The translations under genes were made by a program, and so were the position numbers. This document shows, piece by piece, positions 4,892 to 24,151 of a stretch of 26,317 bases of DNA. Under the pieces are notes generated by a model that saw nothing but the letters and a program-made list of their open reading frames with translations, did no database searches and was not told where the DNA came from. This DNA comes from a virus, in IMG/VR virus record IMGVR_UViG_3300014501_000061, positions 1-26,317 of that record; one strand, 5' to 3'. The stretch's first letter is position 1. Every line of letters begins with the position of its first letter.

Positions 4892-5764
4892 TTAAGATGC
4901 TAATGCTTGTGATATTAGAGTTTGTATTGCCTGTGTATACGTATTACTTAGTAGTTTAATATATGATTTATTTTGATTAATTAATTGTTCATAATCATAT
5001 GCAGTTGTAGGAGAATAATAGATTAATTGATCTGCTGGTATTACAGGTGTTTCCGAAATAACAATTATAGAAGATGCTGTATTACCAGTAAAGTCTGTTA
5101 TACTTTGGATAGTATAATTATTACCAACACTAAAATCCCCACCAACACTAATATTCTTTATATTAATCTGAGTGGTATTTGCATAACATACCTCGGCTGT
5201 AGATGCTGAATCATTTGTATCATAAATGATATCACCAACCGCAAATGGAGTAACATTTGAAGTATATACCAATTGTTGGTACATATTAGTTGTTACTTCA
5301 ATATCTTTCTGCTTTCTAGTATAACCTATAATCATATTTCCTGGTTGAATAATAGGAGTCCAGAATTGTTTTACATCTTCAGAATAACTATTATATGTAC
5401 TTACACTTATTCCATTGGAACTATTATACCAATTAGTAGACCAGTTAATTATCTTAGTCTGGGCAAATGCAAGAGAGCCATATTTTTCTGTAATATATTC
5501 TATAAGTCTATCTTGATTCAATGGCCAACCATAATAAGGATCAACTATATCATTAATCAAATAAATGATGATGTCACAAGTAGGATCACCATAATAATCT
5601 TGGGCTAATTTCTGGGCAGTTAATCCATCTGGAATAGTATAGGGAAAGTAATCTTCGAATTGTTCTTTTATCTGATTCTTAAAGACTACTCTAGTCAATA
5701 AGTTTATTGATGGATAACCTTCATAGGTAATTTGAGGAAATTTTGTAAAATAAAAGTTACTCAT
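4892..5764 (-). CDS. 53: Baseplate wedge protein gp53
   Basis: A 290-residue protein starting MSNFYFTKFP. Residues about 20-105 carry the gp53 signature: YFPYTIPDGLTAQKLAQDYY followed by GDPTCDIIIYLINDIVDPYY and GWPLNQDRLIEYITEKYGS, the LysM-like fold of the wedge protein. T4 gp53 is 196 residues; the extra C-terminal part (about 145-290) looks beta-rich and may be an added domain. A longer open frame to 5794 exists, but ATG 5764 overlaps the upstream stop by 8 nt (ATGAGTAA) and starts the conserved region, so I use it. Confidence 0.85.
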   Translation of the reverse strand: MSNFYFTKFPQITYEGYPSINLLTRVVFKNQIKEQFEDYFPYTIPDGLTAQKLAQDYYGDPTCDIIIYLINDIVDPYYGWPLNQDRLIEYITEKYGSLAFAQTKIINWSTNWYNSSNGISVSTYNSYSEDVKQFWTPIIQPGNMIIGYTRKQKDIEVTTNMYQQLVYTSNVTPFAVGDIIYDTNDSASTAEVCYANTTQINIKNISVGGDFSVGNNYTIQSITDFTGNTASSIIVISETPVIPADQLIYYSPTTAYDYEQLINQNKSYIKLLSNTYTQAIQTLISQALAS

Positions 5765-6899
5765 TTTGTGTTCCTGTTCCATCAAATAATACATTAGAAT
5801 CGTCAGCAGTACTCAATGATCCCTCGGCAGTTGTTGCTTCATCAATACTGATAAATGCTATATTTCGTTGTGAAGAATAAACTGAACTTCTCAAAAATAA
5901 TTCTGTTTCAAGTAATTGAATTGTTATTTGGATATGTGTAGGAGCCTTAGTTCCAACGAAGAATGCTGGTTGTCCTGCACCAACTGGAACAGCAGCAAAT
6001 CCAGTTATAACACATGGTTTAAAAGTGTATAGGTATTTTTGGGTTCCAATAAATTCAGGAAAAACTATATCAGGATATTTTAATAGAACTCCGCCATCTG
6101 TATCTGGAAGCATATGAAATTTAAATTCATTTACAATATTCATTATAAGATTACTATCTTTAGCAGATTTGGGGGCAACCATCCATGAAAAATTATGTGA
6201 TCTAAGTGCTGGTGCTTTGAATGCAACTGTAGTATTTGGGTTTAATATTGTTCCAAATATATTTTGAACAGAATCAGCAGCAAGACCAGCTTCAAATAAT
6301 CCTCCAATTTTTGATAATGCTGAAGCAGCAAAATAAGCTGCGGTTCTTGTTTTTAGTTTTGCTATATCATCTATTGATAAAGATTTTGCATATGGTGTAA
6401 GTGTCCCTGGATTCCAAGCATTATTAACAGCAGATGAAATACCATTTTTTATATCATCCCACCAACCACCAACTGTCCAATCCGAACGTGATGCAACACT
6501 ATTTTGTTCTTGTGCAATTTGATCGGCCATAAATCCGGGTTGATATTGATCATATCCAATAGTATATTGATCAATAATTCCATCTGGAATAGGCATGAAA
6601 ATAGTATTACCAGTTGATTGAAATTTAGTAGGAACAGACAAAGACTCTTTATGATATTCATAAAATGAAAAGGCAATTCTAATTTCACCAGTAGCTAATT
6701 CTGGAGGATAAACTAAAACACCACCAGCCCCGCCGGTTATTGAAGGTGGAATAACAGAAGGAACAACTGATGGAATTTCAGTTACACCACCACCGGGTGG
6801 GGTAGTATCAACAGGATTGCTAGGTCCAAATGGATTTGGAGTAACAGGATTGCTAGGTCCGGTAGTTTTTGGAAATGTAATTGGGTCTACTAGTGACAT
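5757..6899 (-). CDS. 48: Baseplate tail-tube cap or junction protein, gp48-like
   Basis: A 380-residue protein. Residues 1-60 are Pro, Gly and Thr rich. Residues about 215-345 read like a tail-tube-fold domain of the gp48/gp54 class (FKAPALRSHNFSWMVAPKSA, NIVNEFKFHMLPDTDGG, FKPCVITGFAAVPVGAG, PTHIQITIQLLETEL). T4 gp48 and gp54 start tube polymerisation on the baseplate. It is first in the minus-strand baseplate operon, just upstream of gp53. Whether it corresponds to gp48 or gp54 cannot be settled by eye; a second tube-fold protein is at 8087-8857. Confidence 0.7.
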   Translation of the reverse strand: MSLVDPITFPKTTGPSNPVTPNPFGPSNPVDTTPPGGGVTEIPSVVPSVIPPSITGGAGGVLVYPPELATGEIRIAFSFYEYHKESLSVPTKFQSTGNTIFMPIPDGIIDQYTIGYDQYQPGFMADQIAQEQNSVASRSDWTVGGWWDDIKNGISSAVNNAWNPGTLTPYAKSLSIDDIAKLKTRTAAYFAASALSKIGGLFEAGLAADSVQNIFGTILNPNTTVAFKAPALRSHNFSWMVAPKSAKDSNLIMNIVNEFKFHMLPDTDGGVLLKYPDIVFPEFIGTQKYLYTFKPCVITGFAAVPVGAGQPAFFVGTKAPTHIQITIQLLETELFLRSSVYSSQRNIAFISIDEATTAEGSLSTADDSNVLFDGTGTQNE

Positions 6900-14500: not shown

Positions 14501-14507
14501 TATTTAG
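14501..14507 (-). promoter_or_regulatory. Late promoter motif CTAAATA before SleB gene
   Basis: Minus strand CTAAATA is followed by ACATT and then ATG 14495. The last A is 6 nt upstream of the A of ATG, so T4-type initiation would fall on the start codon. The motif overlaps the stop codon of the kinase gene. The geometry is the same as at gp4 (6908-6920). Confidence 0.5.
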
Positions 14508-15019
14508 GATTTTTTGGGATTAATTGCCTTTGAAACTTTTAACATATTACCGTTATGATCATAATGATGAATCTCATCAAACCCTTCATCATGAGTAGGT
14601 TCTTGATAAGAAGCTGTAAAGTTTTTCATAACATGTTCTGGAATAGTTTTACCGGGTCTAGAAGAAAGTCGTTTCATATGTTCTTCATGAGGCGGTGTAT
14701 TTACATTTATTGCAATCTTTTTATAATTCTTAGGGACCATAGCTAGCTTAGGGGCGCGAGACTTCTTTGAAAGATTAGTTTGATCAGAAACTACATCTTG
14801 ACCAGCTTTAAAATGCTTTGCTGCCATATGTTTCGATAGTGTGCCAGCATACTTAATTGAATGATCAAATACATCATCATAAGTTGTTTCGGCACCCTTA
14901 GCAATTCCTTCTATAATAGCATCAGAAGAAACTACTTTAGCACCTGCTGACCTAAGTTTTTCTACTAATGTAGACTTTCCAGATGCTGGAACTCCTACCA
15001 TCATATGATAATTAGGCAT
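14504..15019 (-). CDS. Polynucleotide 5'-kinase (kinase domain only)
   Basis: A 171-residue P-loop kinase: GVPASGKST at 9-17 (Walker A), SSDAI at about 31-35 (acceptor-site Asp), VVSDQTNLSKKSR at about 76-88, and a lid with RLSSRPGKTIPEHVMKNF. It matches the N-terminal kinase half of T4 Pnk (301 residues); the C-terminal 3'-phosphatase (DxDGT) half is missing. It overlaps the RNA ligase gene by 8 nt, so the pair is probably a tRNA repair cassette. Without the phosphatase it could add 5'-phosphate but not remove a 2',3'-cyclic phosphate. Confidence 0.8.
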   Translation of the reverse strand: MPNYHMMVGVPASGKSTLVEKLRSAGAKVVSSDAIIEGIAKGAETTYDDVFDHSIKYAGTLSKHMAAKHFKAGQDVVSDQTNLSKKSRAPKLAMVPKNYKKIAINVNTPPHEEHMKRLSSRPGKTIPEHVMKNFTASYQEPTHDEGFDEIHHYDHNGNMLKVSKAINPKKS

Positions 15020-16220
15020 AGACTAACTCCTTAAAGAATTCATCCTTTACTTTAGCAAAACTCTTATTATTAGTTGAACCTTTTTTAATAATTGTTGCAA
15101 TAGCATTCATGACAGTCATCTTATCTGTCTTAGCCATATCCTTATCCCATAAAGTGAATACTAATGAACGGTTTAATGGTTTCATTATATTTTTCAAAGC
15201 AAAGTCCTTTCTTGATACTCCCTCTGTATGAAGTGCAGCCAAACAAGCACCCAATTCCTGTGCTTCGGCCTGCAAAACTTTCCAGAATTCTTTTGCATAT
15301 TTCTGGACTCTTATTTTATCATCTTCCAAGATATCAGGAATACTAATAACATCATCAAGCTGTCCATTTATGATAATATTGACAACATTTGATTCTGAGC
15401 TAATCAAATTTTTAAATGAATGAATTCTCATATACCAATCCGCCTTTACTTTTAACATATGACCATCATCGAATCTTATTACATAGCCTTCCATATTAAC
15501 AAGATTACGAGTATGGGAAATAAATGAATCTATGTCATTTGCAGACATATCAAATACTTTAACTACTGGAACAGCATGAGCATCAGCTATAGCCTGCATT
15601 GCAGACAATGGCCAATACATTCCATTCCAATTGTTTCTTATAGCTGTAAGAACAAGCTTATCTTCTTCATGATCTATAACAACTCTGTTCTGACGTGAGC
15701 ACCATTCAAATATTGGTGTTGAATCATTACTAATCACTTCTGCTGCAAAATATTCATAGGAAATCTTTTTTACAGATTTTAGATAGGCTTGTGCCTGTGC
15801 AGAGATATCTGTCTCACCCATTTTGGTTGCCCAACGGATACTACCTATATCACCTTCTCCCTCACCATAATTAGTCCAATTGGTTATAAATGGAGTAACC
15901 ATTGAACCATCAAGTTTTTCTAAAATGTAATGATGCTGATTGAAATCAATATCATCCTGTAATGTTTCAGGACGTTCGTTTATATTGAAAAATTTGTGAT
16001 AAGGACGGCGGATAACCTGACCATCCATGTCAAACATAATACCACGGCATTCACGAAGCAAAGCTGCTTTATTATTTTCTACAATAGGGAATGTATCATC
16101 TGTATTGTATACATAATTTACAACCTTATAGTCACCTTTATCAACCAAAATAAATTCATCCTTGCCTTCTATGGCATTCAGAATATCATCTATATGAGTT
16201 ATTTTAGGGAATTTATACAT
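15012..16220 (-). CDS. rnlA: RNA ligase 1 (Rnl1 family)
   Basis: A 402-residue protein (T4 Rnl1 is 374). Nucleotidyltransferase motifs appear in order: RECRGIMFD at 56-64, KFFNINE, motif I EKLDGS with the AMP-accepting Lys102, YEYFAAEVIS and RNRVVI-like strands, motif IV MEGYVIRF and motif V MLKVKADWYMRIH. The C-terminal helical domain (about 270-402) fits the Rnl1 tRNA-specificity domain. In T4 it reseals host tRNA cut by anticodon nuclease. It overlaps the kinase gene downstream and is coupled to a 76-residue gene upstream. Confidence 0.9.
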   Translation of the reverse strand: MYKFPKITHIDDILNAIEGKDEFILVDKGDYKVVNYVYNTDDTFPIVENNKAALLRECRGIMFDMDGQVIRRPYHKFFNINERPETLQDDIDFNQHHYILEKLDGSMVTPFITNWTNYGEGEGDIGSIRWATKMGETDISAQAQAYLKSVKKISYEYFAAEVISNDSTPIFEWCSRQNRVVIDHEEDKLVLTAIRNNWNGMYWPLSAMQAIADAHAVPVVKVFDMSANDIDSFISHTRNLVNMEGYVIRFDDGHMLKVKADWYMRIHSFKNLISSESNVVNIIINGQLDDVISIPDILEDDKIRVQKYAKEFWKVLQAEAQELGACLAALHTEGVSRKDFALKNIMKPLNRSLVFTLWDKDMAKTDKMTVMNAIATIIKKGSTNNKSFAKVKDEFFKELVYA

Positions 16221-17323: not shown

Positions 17324-17790
17324 TATTCTGTAGGCATTGCATGAGCATGAGCAAGAGCAGCTTTCTTAGCCCCTCGTTTATCATCACGCTGTTTCTTGAA
17401 AATTTTAACATCGGCACTAAAGTCTTTATGTTTGCCAAGAGAATTTAATAGACTTCCGGCTTGTGGACCAGCAGTTACTTTTCCTTCTGGAGTACGATGA
17501 ACATATCCTTTACGATTAATAATTATATGATGACCAGGGAATGAAGGATGTTCCATGTGATGATTTGGATGATTTTCTCCGTTAGTAGACCCTTGGCTAA
17601 CTTGAACACGGCGAAACCCTAATTTCTGAGAAGTTTTAAATAATTTTGCAGCAGGATTATATGTTCCCCAAGTTTTACTCTTTGGAGTATGAATCTTTTT
17701 TAATTCTTTAGATATCTTCTTAGATGGTCCAGAAGCCGACCCTTTATCATATAATACGGTTGCTTCTAATAGTTGTTTGATTGTTTTCAT
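17323..17790 (-). CDS. Basic protein with capsid-targeting-like N-terminus
   Basis: A 155-residue, strongly basic protein. The N-terminus MKTIKQLLEATVL resembles the T4 MKTYQEFIAE targeting peptide and contains L-L-E before Ala, a plausible prohead protease site. The body holds many Lys, His and Arg residues. The segment GFRRVQVSQGSTNGENHPNH, then PGHHIIINRKGYVHRTPEGK looks like a small alpha/beta fold, possibly toxin-like. GAGGATT precedes ATG 17790, with a late motif directly upstream. It is the first gene of the internal-protein-like run. Confidence 0.65.
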   Translation of the reverse strand: MKTIKQLLEATVLYDKGSASGPSKKISKELKKIHTPKSKTWGTYNPAAKLFKTSQKLGFRRVQVSQGSTNGENHPNHHMEHPSFPGHHIIINRKGYVHRTPEGKVTAGPQAGSLLNSLGKHKDFSADVKIFKKQRDDKRGAKKAALAHAHAMPTE

Positions 17791-17803
17791 AGTAATCCTC
17801 GCC

Positions 17804-17812
17804 TATATTTAG
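17804..17812 (-). promoter_or_regulatory. Late promoter motif CTAAATATA
   Basis: Minus strand CTAAATA (17812 to 17806) predicts +1 at 17800, the first base of the GAGGATT ribosome binding site, giving a 10-nt leader to ATG 17790. It lies just downstream of the tmRNA terminator, so the four following genes form their own late unit. Confidence 0.55.
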
Positions 17813-17825
17813 GAAATGCAAACGC

Positions 17826-17857
17826 AAAAAAGCCTCATTGGAGTAATCCAATGAGGC
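17826..17857 (-). terminator. Rho-independent terminator of the tmRNA locus
   Basis: Minus strand: GCCTCATTGGA, loop TTAC, TCCAATGAGGC, a perfect 11-bp stem (17857 to 17832) followed by six T (17831 to 17826). It separates the tmRNA locus from the downstream protein genes. Confidence 0.92.
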
Positions 17858-18215
17858 TAATTCAACTCTTCCTGTTGCCAAGATTGGTTTTTCTCCGCTG
17901 ACCTAATCAGCAGGCGTTCATTTGGTATTTAAAATACCAAACTCCGTTGAAATGTGATGCAATATTATCCCCCATTTTTAAAATAACTATCCCTTTTTAT
18001 CCTGTTGCTAAGAAAAAAGGGTAAAAACTCCGGTCTGCTTACGCAGCCATTGCAAAGCCTTGAGCTTCGTCTTTTGAAATAGTAGTAGTCTACTAACCGT
18101 GTAATCTCTACCGTTTTATTGCCCAAAAATCGATAACCAATTCATCCCCTCTGTGGTGGAGATGAGGGGATTTGAACCCCTGTCTTTCTGGTTTTATTCC
18201 AGTGTCAACAATTAC
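17858..18215 (-). ncRNA. ssrA: Candidate circularly permuted (two-piece) tmRNA precursor
   Basis: Order on the minus strand: late promoter TATAAATA; acceptor piece with T arm AGGGG-TTCAAAT-CCCCT (18181 to 18165), acceptor strand CATCTCC and encoded ACCA ending at 18154; a 4-nt linker CAGA (18153-18150); coding piece starting GGGGATG (18149 to 18143); tag frame; terminator. GGGGATG pairs with CATCTCC over all 7 bp with G.U at the third pair, the alanine identity element of tmRNA. TTGGTTATCGAT after the acceptor strand resembles the conserved CUGGAUUCGAC. The UUUUUGG and CCAGAAAG segments can form a helix 2. About 358 nt in all. The 3' end of the coding piece is not defined; several hairpins (17897-17945) may be the pseudoknot region. 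Confidence 0.82.
18039..18077 (-). other. tmRNA proteolysis-tag reading frame
   Basis: Minus-strand codons after UAUU read Ser-Lys-Asp-Glu-Ala-Gln-Gly-Phe-Ala-Met-Ala-Ala, then UAA (18041-18039). The tag ends in Ala-Ala after a hydrophobic residue, as ssrA degrons do (E. coli ends LAA, alphaproteobacteria VAA). The exact resume codon is uncertain: it could be UCA at 18077 or AAA at 18074. The stop sits in the GUAA loop of a CTGC-GTAA-GCAG hairpin, similar to helix 5 placement in other tmRNAs. A short hairpin (TAGTAG-CTACTA) precedes the tag. Confidence 0.72.
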
Positions 18216-18220
18216 AAACC

Positions 18221-18228
18221 TATTTATA
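18221..18228 (-). promoter_or_regulatory. Perfect T4-type late promoter TATAAATA for tmRNA
   Basis: The minus strand carries the exact T4 late consensus. T4 spacing puts +1 at 18215, giving a 62-nt RNA up to the encoded CCA at 18154, a reasonable acceptor-piece length. It is the only exact match on the minus strand that I found ahead of a gene in this window. Confidence 0.7.
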
Positions 18229-18243
18229 CATTCCTAGTATAGT

Positions 18244-18411
18244 TTATAATCCTCGTTTAATCCTGCCTTGGGTTGTATGTTCCCTACAATAATCGGTCCA
18301 ATTTCCATATTGTTTTGGATTATTACAACCATCTTCTCTACATACTTTTCTTTCTGATAGACCTTTATTTCTAGCATTGGCCATGGCCTCATAATCTTCA
18401 TCAGATGGCAT
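18244..18411 (-). CDS. Small zinc-finger-like protein, 55 aa
   Basis: ATG 18411 follows the previous stop by 2 nt and the frame runs 55 codons to TAA at 18244-18246. The protein (start MPSDEDYEAMANARNKGLSE) carries CREDGCNNPKQYGNWTDYCR followed by EH: Cys-x4-Cys, then Cys-x2-His, a plausible zinc site. The stop lies 16 nt before the tmRNA late promoter. Its function is unknown; the basic end suggests nucleic acid contact. Confidence 0.7.
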   Translation of the reverse strand: MPSDEDYEAMANARNKGLSERKVCREDGCNNPKQYGNWTDYCREHTTQGRIKRGL

Positions 18412-19742: not shown

Positions 19743-20218
19743 TCACCCTTCAATAATGCATTAAACTTTTTTCGGTATGGGTCAGTAGAACGACCTCGAT
19801 AACAATCATCATGATTCCATACAATCTTATATTTTTTCTTATTTGATACTTTCCAACTTTTTAATACTTTATCAATTGCCTTGAGAGCGACATTTATATT
19901 ATCAAATTTCTCTTCCCATCGTCGCCCTTCTATTCCTCTAATCTCATATGATTTCCATGGTTCTGTCCATGCCCATGTAATTGTACCATTAAATTCATCC
20001 CAAGACCAGATAGGATTTCTTTCCTCTTTTATATCACAATAATAATGATTATTAGAACCAATGCATCCTGCATAGGTCATGATATGAACATGAATATTTC
20101 TTGGTTTTTTACATGCAGGAAACATAAAGATATATGGTTTCCACATATCTGCAACATGTCCACCTAGACGTGAACTACCACTTTCATAATCAGGTTCTAT
20201 GAATTTAATTTTAGACAC
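19739..20218 (-). CDS. Hypothetical protein of the desaturase operon, GTG start
   Basis: A 159-residue protein starting at GTG 20218, overlapping the desaturase stop by 8 nt (GTGTCTAA). It is aromatic and Trp-rich (NPIWSWDEFNGTITWAWTEP, then SYEIRGIEGRRWEE) with Cys and His residues in HVHIMTYAGCIGSNNHYYCD that might bind metal. It has no signal peptide. Tight coupling to the desaturase suggests a linked role, but I recognise no family. Confidence 0.65.
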   Translation of the reverse strand: MSKIKFIEPDYESGSSRLGGHVADMWKPYIFMFPACKKPRNIHVHIMTYAGCIGSNNHYYCDIKEERNPIWSWDEFNGTITWAWTEPWKSYEIRGIEGRRWEEKFDNINVALKAIDKVLKSWKVSNKKKYKIVWNHDDCYRGRSTDPYRKKFNALLKGD

Positions 20219-21134
20219 TGGCTTCCCTCATCACTTCCATATAATTTTTAGAAAAATGTGCATCAGCAAATTCAGGCTTGGTCATAAGAATCTTATGTAA
20301 CTCCGGTAGTCTATAAAAAGGAACCGAAGGATATAGATGGTGTTCAAGATGATAATTTACATTCTTAGGAGCCAAAAATATCTTTGATATGATACCAGCA
20401 AATGTAGTACGGGTCTGGGCATATATCCAAGAATTTTTCTCTGGAATTGAAAAATGCTCTGCAATGCTTCGAATACGCATTATCATAACCAACCAAGTGA
20501 ATAATGGAACAATCCAGTAAAGCAGAAATACTTCAAGTAATCCTAGACTGTATAACATACAGAATAGTATACTATAAAAAGAATATCTTATCAAGGTAAA
20601 TCCAAGAGGCGGTTTATCAGCATTAGATGATAGTTTAAATATTAGCTTTACTAAAGCCATAGTATTGATACCAACAAAATCAAAAGTTAATAACTTAGTT
20701 AGCTTGGTCCTAGTCATTGGAAATACCCAAGCGGGGTCTCCCATTCGTCGTTTCATATCAGGGTCATCAGCCGTATTCAAATATTTGTGATGGGGAAAAT
20801 GATTTTGTCTATAGAATTGAGCAGAGGTAAAGCATGGCCATGCAAGAAATAGTTCTGCTACCCAATCATTAAGTTTTCTGTTATTAAAAAGTCGATAATG
20901 AGTACCATCATGCATTAAAATAAGCAATGCATGTTGTCTTGCTCCTATAAACGCTACTGCTAGGATATAAAAGAATGGATTATGAACAAATATACTAATA
21001 GCTATCATTACAATAATAGCAATCCACTCCATGGCAATATGAAAAATTGCCTTCCAAGGTTTAACCTGAGAAAGAGAAATTAATTCTTCCTTGGATAACT
21101 TTACTGGAATACGACCTGCATATTCTGCGTTCAT
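20211..21134 (-). CDS. Membrane fatty acid desaturase
   Basis: A 307-residue integral membrane di-iron enzyme. All three histidine boxes are present: HDGTH (75-79), HFPHH (112-116) and HLEHH (262-266, in YHLEHHLYPSVPF). Hydrophobic segments lie at about 35-65 and 175-225. The family desaturates or hydroxylates acyl chains or carotenoid-like substrates using an electron donor, here presumably the host's. No cytochrome b5 domain is fused. The gene overlaps an acyltransferase-like gene by 4 nt (ATGA). It may change host membrane fluidity or make a specific lipid; the substrate is unknown. Confidence 0.9.
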   Translation of the reverse strand: MNAEYAGRIPVKLSKEELISLSQVKPWKAIFHIAMEWIAIIVMIAISIFVHNPFFYILAVAFIGARQHALLILMHDGTHYRLFNNRKLNDWVAELFLAWPCFTSAQFYRQNHFPHHKYLNTADDPDMKRRMGDPAWVFPMTRTKLTKLLTFDFVGINTMALVKLIFKLSSNADKPPLGFTLIRYSFYSILFCMLYSLGLLEVFLLYWIVPLFTWLVMIMRIRSIAEHFSIPEKNSWIYAQTRTTFAGIISKIFLAPKNVNYHLEHHLYPSVPFYRLPELHKILMTKPEFADAHFSKNYMEVMREASV

Positions 21135-21736
21135 CGAATGAAACTCCTGAATTCTATCGCTGATAAATCAGCCTTTGATTTATCTACCTTGTTAATATAC
21201 TTATTATGAATGGCATCAAATTCATCTCCACTAAGTAGAAATGGAGCAGCCTGAAATGGTAATCCATTGATAGTTTCAAGAAATGGATACCGTATTGGAC
21301 TACTCATCTGTTTGAAACCAATCTTTCTATAGAATTTTGTATTGTTAAATGGTTCAAGTGCCAAATAAATTAAAATAGCCTCTATACTCATTTCCCATCC
21401 AAGAATCATCATTCCAATACGAAGTTCAGAACCTGCTCCTAATGAAGAAGTCCATAGTTCACTTATTTCCCATACTTTATTTGGAGTATAATGTGTAAGG
21501 TCTGGTTCATGAAGAGTCTGAGGCATCATTTCAAGATTATGGGCGGCGAGACCGGCAATCATATGATTAGACCGGTTAAAAAGTCCGTAAAGACGACCAT
21601 GATTAAGATGAATCTGTTCAAGACGAGAATCTGGTTTATCACGAAAACCAGCACCAAACTTAATTCTTGCTTTATGAAGTTCTTTAGCAAATGTATCAAC
21701 AGAACATTTACCATTATCTAAAAGTCTAATTATCAT
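21131..21736 (-). CDS. GNAT-like acyltransferase
   Basis: A 201-residue protein with a GNAT-like layout: a central strand region (YGLFNRSNHMIAGLAAHNLE), KVWEISELWTSSL, a helix (LRIGMMILGWEMSIEAILIY) and the typical late motif NTKFYRKIGFKQ near residues 137-148. The arrangement, including a conserved-looking WEISEL and a C-terminal PFLLSGDEFDAIH, also recalls acyl-homoserine-lactone or N-acyl amino acid synthases of the GNAT superfamily. With the overlapping desaturase it may build or modify an acyl product. No catalytic residue can be named with certainty. Confidence 0.6.
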   Translation of the reverse strand: MIIRLLDNGKCSVDTFAKELHKARIKFGAGFRDKPDSRLEQIHLNHGRLYGLFNRSNHMIAGLAAHNLEMMPQTLHEPDLTHYTPNKVWEISELWTSSLGAGSELRIGMMILGWEMSIEAILIYLALEPFNNTKFYRKIGFKQMSSPIRYPFLETINGLPFQAAPFLLSGDEFDAIHNKYINKVDKSKADLSAIEFRSFIR

Positions 21737-24067: not shown

Positions 24068-24151
24068 TGGTACAGGCTGAGAGAATCGAACTCTCACTGC
24101 TTTCGCAACTGGTTCTTAAGACCAGCGGGTCTACCGTTCCCCCAAGCCTGC
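24068..24151 (-). tRNA. tRNA-Leu (anticodon UAA)
   Basis: 84 nt with encoded CCA. Acceptor GCAGGCT pairs with AGCCTGT (G.U first pair). Anticodon stem CTGGT/ACCAG encloses CTTAAGA, with anticodon TAA. A long variable arm (TTGCGAAAGCAGT) marks a type II leucine tRNA. The T arm is GAGAG-TTCGATT-CTCTC. It reads UUA, a codon favoured in AT-rich genes like those here. Confidence 0.95.

Follow-up and report, generated by a model that had tools for sequence, protein, structure and literature searches.

Here we describe a tmRNA gene on the minus strand of a viral contig, IMG/VR record IMGVR_UViG_3300014501_000061, the whole 26,317-nt stretch of which is called the window below. A tmRNA is an RNA by which stuck ribosomes are released and unfinished proteins tagged, and the reason why phages carry one is an unsettled question. 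With near certainty, the locus is a tmRNA gene of the circularly permuted (two-piece) kind, complete and carried by a T4-like phage. The first-pass annotation, made from the sequence alone, had identified it as such, and all of the elements that it listed are found on this strand: the T arm, acceptor strand, CCA, CAGA, GGGGATG, Ala-Met-Ala-Ala-stop, terminator and upstream TATAAATA (Table 1). The coding piece follows the piece that carries the T arm and CCA, and the ends of the two pieces form a 7-bp acceptor helix (GGGGATG/CATCTCC) with a G-U at pair 3, the G3-U70 alanine identity pair.

Table 1 Features of the permuted tmRNA locus, in order of transcription, and the gp33-like gene of the window.
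Feature	Positions	Strand	Basis or remark
Predicted T4-type late promoter TATAAATA; predicted +1 about 18215	18228-18221	minus	same position in relatives
Acceptor piece (5' strand of piece-joining helix, T arm, acceptor 3' strand, A + CCA)	about 18216-18154	minus	RF04321 alignment
T arm AGGGG-TTCAAAT-CCCCT	18181-18165	minus	
Acceptor strand CATCTCC	18164-18158	minus	
Discriminator A	18157	minus	
Encoded CCA	18156-18154	minus	
Intervening sequence (linker) CAGA, 4 nt, predicted to be removed	18153-18150	minus	
Coding-piece 5' end GGGGATG	18149-18143	minus	pairs with CATCTCC
Coding piece to tag stop codon (tRNA-like part and tag frame)	18149-18039	minus	RF04321 alignment
Tag frame encoding SKDEAQGFAMAA; putative resume codon UCA 18077-18075	18077-18042, stop UAA 18041-18039	minus	
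Conserved hairpin 3' of tag, loop CUUAGCAACAGGA	18022-17991	minus	
Second copy of hairpin-loop sequence	17870-17883	minus	13/14 identical to 18000-18013
Intrinsic terminator with a 12-bp stem and a 4-nt loop, followed by a T run	17858-17831	minus	
T4 gp33-like late-promoter transcription coactivator, 81 aa	13811-14056	minus	phrog_254, E = 1.7e-12

The first-pass annotation had also proposed a comparison with tmRNA covariance models. In a cmscan search of the whole 26-kb window, RF04321 (tmRNA_permuted, Rfam 15) matched positions 18216-18039 of the minus strand at full length, with 78.3 bits against a cut-off of 47 and E = 1e-13. Every modelled base pair of the alignment is standard, with none non-standard, and on these four grounds a chance match was dismissed. 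The older clade models fit more poorly. The best of the three, beta_tmRNA (RF01850), was matched over the whole model with 37.8 bits (E = 3e-10 in a 601-nt stretch), which lies under its own cut-off of 84, the score required for assignment to that clade form. No open reading frame of 60 aa or more covers the tmRNA region, and 18149-17826 folds far more stably than shuffled sequences (z = -5.2), with the terminator accounting for part of this. ARAGORN, run on the window, did not call the tmRNA and reported solely a tRNA-Leu at 24068-24151. The miss is a sign that counts of such genes in phage genomes may be too low.

The T4-like assignment is based on core proteins encoded in the window, which include gp32, gp59, gp33, the baseplate hub/lysozyme, a baseplate wedge protein, the tail-tube cap, head closure and DNA end protector proteins, and Rnl1. 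Gp32 is nearest to cyanophage gp32 (44-50% identity), Rnl1 is nearest to that of Caulobacter phage Cr30 (41% identity), and the tmRNA is nearest to the betaproteobacterial form. The T4 Rnl1-type RNA ligase (15012-16220) adjoins a polynucleotide-kinase-like ATPase (14504-15019), a pair that resembles a tRNA-repair system and lies about 2 kb from the tmRNA. The window also encodes a fatty acid desaturase (20211-21134; PF00487, E = 1.8e-37), which in this T4-like phage may be an auxiliary metabolic gene. No SmpB was found among the window proteins scanned with Pfam, nor did 14 long phage contigs that carry a permuted tmRNA yield one. Relatives of the window were sought in IMG/VR through the neighboring DUF932 protein, and none were confirmed. 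A blastn search against phage records gave just short matches to the T arm and acceptor, some of them in tRNA-Ala.

The tag frame ends in GCA-ATG-GCT-GCG-TAA, giving the tag a ...GFAMAA terminus, a degron-type end followed directly by the stop codon. Among 169 distinct viral tags, 104 end in ALAA and five in AMAA, and by this comparison the AMAA end is a minor but normal variant. Redirected tagging, which had been suggested from the first reading of the sequence, finds no support here, as the tag has an ordinary degron-type xLAA/xMAA end. The E. coli resume site is GCA-AAC-GAC-GAA, and the UCA-AAA-GAC-GAA of the phage gene aligns with sites of this type. The UCA is atypical, where GCN is usual, and position -4 has no A, so we predict the exact resume point from that alignment. 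Relative to the RF04321 consensus, Ser replaces Ala as the first encoded tag residue, and the linker is 19 nt shorter (cmscan alignment). The motif in the loop of the post-tag hairpin is found at roughly this position in 62 of 189 viral and seven of 36 bacterial permuted tmRNAs among the matches listed. Its sequence occurs twice in the 3' part of the transcript, with the copies 130 nt apart, and loci L005 and L254 likewise have a second loop motif further downstream.

Phage tmRNAs of the two-piece kind have been described before. In a published survey, 53 of 133 distinct phage tmRNAs were two-piece structures; 50 of these were marine or aquatic, and the T4-like phages Melnitz and Mosig were among the carriers (PMC9004378). 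The current database holds 79 unique phage tmRNAs, and RF04321 is the general Rfam model covering all permuted forms (PMC11915505). The two-piece ssrA of Melnitz and of Pelagibacter phage Mosig (PMC9004378; MT647606) shares with the gene described here the permuted order, a T4-like marine phage as carrier, a tag frame and the lack of any reported dedicated SmpB. The linker of Mosig is far longer (a hairpin of about 46 nt) than the 4 nt found here, and Mosig has no TATAAATA before the acceptor piece, where the window has one. Melnitz is reported to have an early promoter upstream of its tmRNA and a glutamine riboswitch in the 3' domain, and early expression was proposed for it (PMC9004378). An Rfam scan with permissive thresholds found no such riboswitch in 17700-18300. 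The betaproteobacterial permuted tmRNA (RF01850), for example in Rhodocyclaceae/Accumulibacter loci L368 and L362, has the same gene order and 4-nt linker class, and some copies have a post-tag hairpin. It differs in that the phage copy scores under the RF01850 cut-off and has TATAAATA at its start, which the bacterial genes do not. Cyanophage S-SSM7 (GU071098) is also T4-like and carries a permuted tmRNA with a short spacer, but that RNA is of the cyanobacterial form (RF01851, 109 bits), with no encoded CCA and a longer cyanobacterial-type tag. It is un-annotated, lying under hypothetical protein SSSM7_025 (L002:2480-2758; GU071098.1 about 21008-21286). Alcaligenes phage vB_Af_QDWS595 (Schitoviridae; OK149171.2, L153:971-1224) likewise has a permuted tmRNA of 111 bits that is un-annotated in its record.

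The first-pass annotation had further considered a permuted tmRNA in a T4-type phage, with so short an intervening segment, to be unusual. The permuted identity itself held, whereas the form was already published for T4-type phages, and the 4-nt linker was rejected as a novelty, being common in both viral and bacterial permuted tmRNAs. Pattern scans of IMG/VR within set linker ranges yielded at least 252 viral permuted tmRNA records, and among the matches listed the linker measures 3-5 nt in 39 of 252 and 0-1 nt in two. A comparison of linker length within one bacterial order gave few permuted genes, only three of 60 above cut-off, so the bacterial figures rest on a pattern scan that covered linkers up to 30 nt and found at least 36 permuted genes. 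Exactly 4 nt was the commonest length (20 of 36 among the matches listed), with examples in Rhodocyclaceae, Accumulibacter and a Leptolyngbya. Of the acceptor pairs, three were not set by the search pattern; they form in 28 of 30 short-linker relatives, compared with a mean of 9.8 and a maximum of 15 for shuffled partners.

What stands out here is the promoter layout, which recurs in many related viruses; the rearranged phage tmRNA itself was already known. TATAAATA is not enriched in the window (two found, five expected), so its count was rejected as evidence and its position relative to the tmRNA was tested instead. In the window, TATAAATA stands 4 nt before the first modelled tmRNA base. 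In a sample of 172 distinct viral permuted tmRNAs, chosen without regard to promoters and each with 190 nt or more of upstream sequence, exact TATAAATA occurred 18 times in the 11-nt zone 40-50 nt before the T-arm motif and seven times in about 170 other positions (172 sequences listed). When gaps of 28-56 nt were allowed in the scan, real tmRNAs were found only at 40-46. In 21 of 22 cases TATAAATA lies 3-7 nt before the first base of the Rfam model, as expected for a T4 late start site, which has a spacing of about 5 nt from its promoter. Among the bacterial permuted tmRNAs listed, none of 36 has NATAAATA within the 200 nt upstream. We found no published report of TATAAATA placed before a permuted tmRNA in the open-licence literature.

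Structural genes of the window that were checked have near matches only (CATAAATA upstream of 2198-2563 and 5757-6899). Since these are near matches and TATAAATA itself occurs only twice in the window, the promoter is predicted from its position. The spacing from the first modelled base and the presence of a gp33-like gene are both consistent with a T4-type late promoter, and the start site is likewise a prediction. A gp33-like gene is present in seven of 11 records with the promoter layout, most of which are fragments, but also in four of nine comparison records, and thus gp33 alone does not predict the layout. The position of TATAAATA strongly suggests late timing of tmRNA expression.

With a probability of roughly 70%, we read this gene as a late-expressed, two-piece replacement tmRNA of a T4-like phage that would depend on the SmpB of its host. 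Its transcription timing, processing, charging and function during infection we infer as follows. Transcription would start at the late promoter, no more than about 2 nt from the 5' end of the acceptor piece, and would end at the intrinsic terminator. Host RNase P would cut before GGGGATG (18150/18149), and a host 3' nuclease would trim CAGA back to the encoded CCA. The acceptor helix and a long-range helix would then keep the two pieces paired, and the RNA would be charged with alanine (G3-U70). With host SmpB, stalled proteins could be given the tag (A)SKDEAQGFAMAA. Late in infection, ribosome rescue may in this way be sustained while host transcripts are gone and cut mRNAs accumulate. Ribosome rescue during takeover had been offered as an idea in the first-pass annotation, and we likewise infer it as a reasonable role.

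Some features count against this reading. The UCA in place of the usual GCN resume codon, the missing A at -4, an RF04321 score of 78 bits below that of several relatives (up to 144) and the ARAGORN miss would all suit a decaying passenger, a host-derived tmRNA that is recognizable but no longer functional and has TATAAATA before it by chance. We consider such decay unlikely, as helices would break first and all modelled base pairs are intact; the tag frame also ends correctly, and neither the post-tag hairpin nor the terminator nor the promoter is missing. The retained tag frame, with its normal degron-type end and stop codon, argues against a decoy role, in which the phage RNA would compete with the tmRNA of the host for SmpB or alanyl-tRNA synthetase, since a decoy would need none of these. 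An inhibitory phage RNA of this sort is on record, namely the tag-less tmRNA-like RNA of phage DS6A that interferes with the host system (cited in PMC11915505), and for the gene described here we regard such a role as highly improbable.

The remaining alternative is about timing. The gene could serve in early infection, as proposed for the Melnitz ssrA with its early promoter (PMC9004378). No sigma-70-type site was found near the gene on the minus strand, and TATAAATA recurs in relatives at the exact predicted start point, which makes an early role improbable here, at about the same level as decay. Mosig lacks TATAAATA before its tmRNA, and phages may therefore differ in this respect. For late expression of a host-SmpB-dependent tmRNA, the fixed TATAAATA gives a concrete and testable prediction that departs from the early expression proposed for Melnitz: the RNA should appear late, with its start at the acceptor 5' end.

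We lean slightly towards a broader reading, in which the gene would belong to a widespread class of T4-like phages that place a permuted tmRNA under a phage late promoter. Transcription in this class would begin at the mature acceptor 5' end, leaving just a short linker to be processed, and late rescue could be renewed via host SmpB.

Linkers also differ between near-identical phages, at 3 nt in L143 and 53 nt in L330, and at 5 nt in L146 and 45 nt in L325. The sets L143/L330, L146/L325/L131 and L135/L254 are at least 96% identical over the 60 nt upstream and the acceptor piece, with linkers of either 3-12 or 45-63 nt. Together with the 3-5 nt linkers above, these phages, some with a linker hairpin and some lacking one, lend themselves to a natural experiment on the minimal intervening sequence for two-piece processing. 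In these near-identical phages the long linkers form a self-complementary hairpin, as if the hairpin had been gained or lost.
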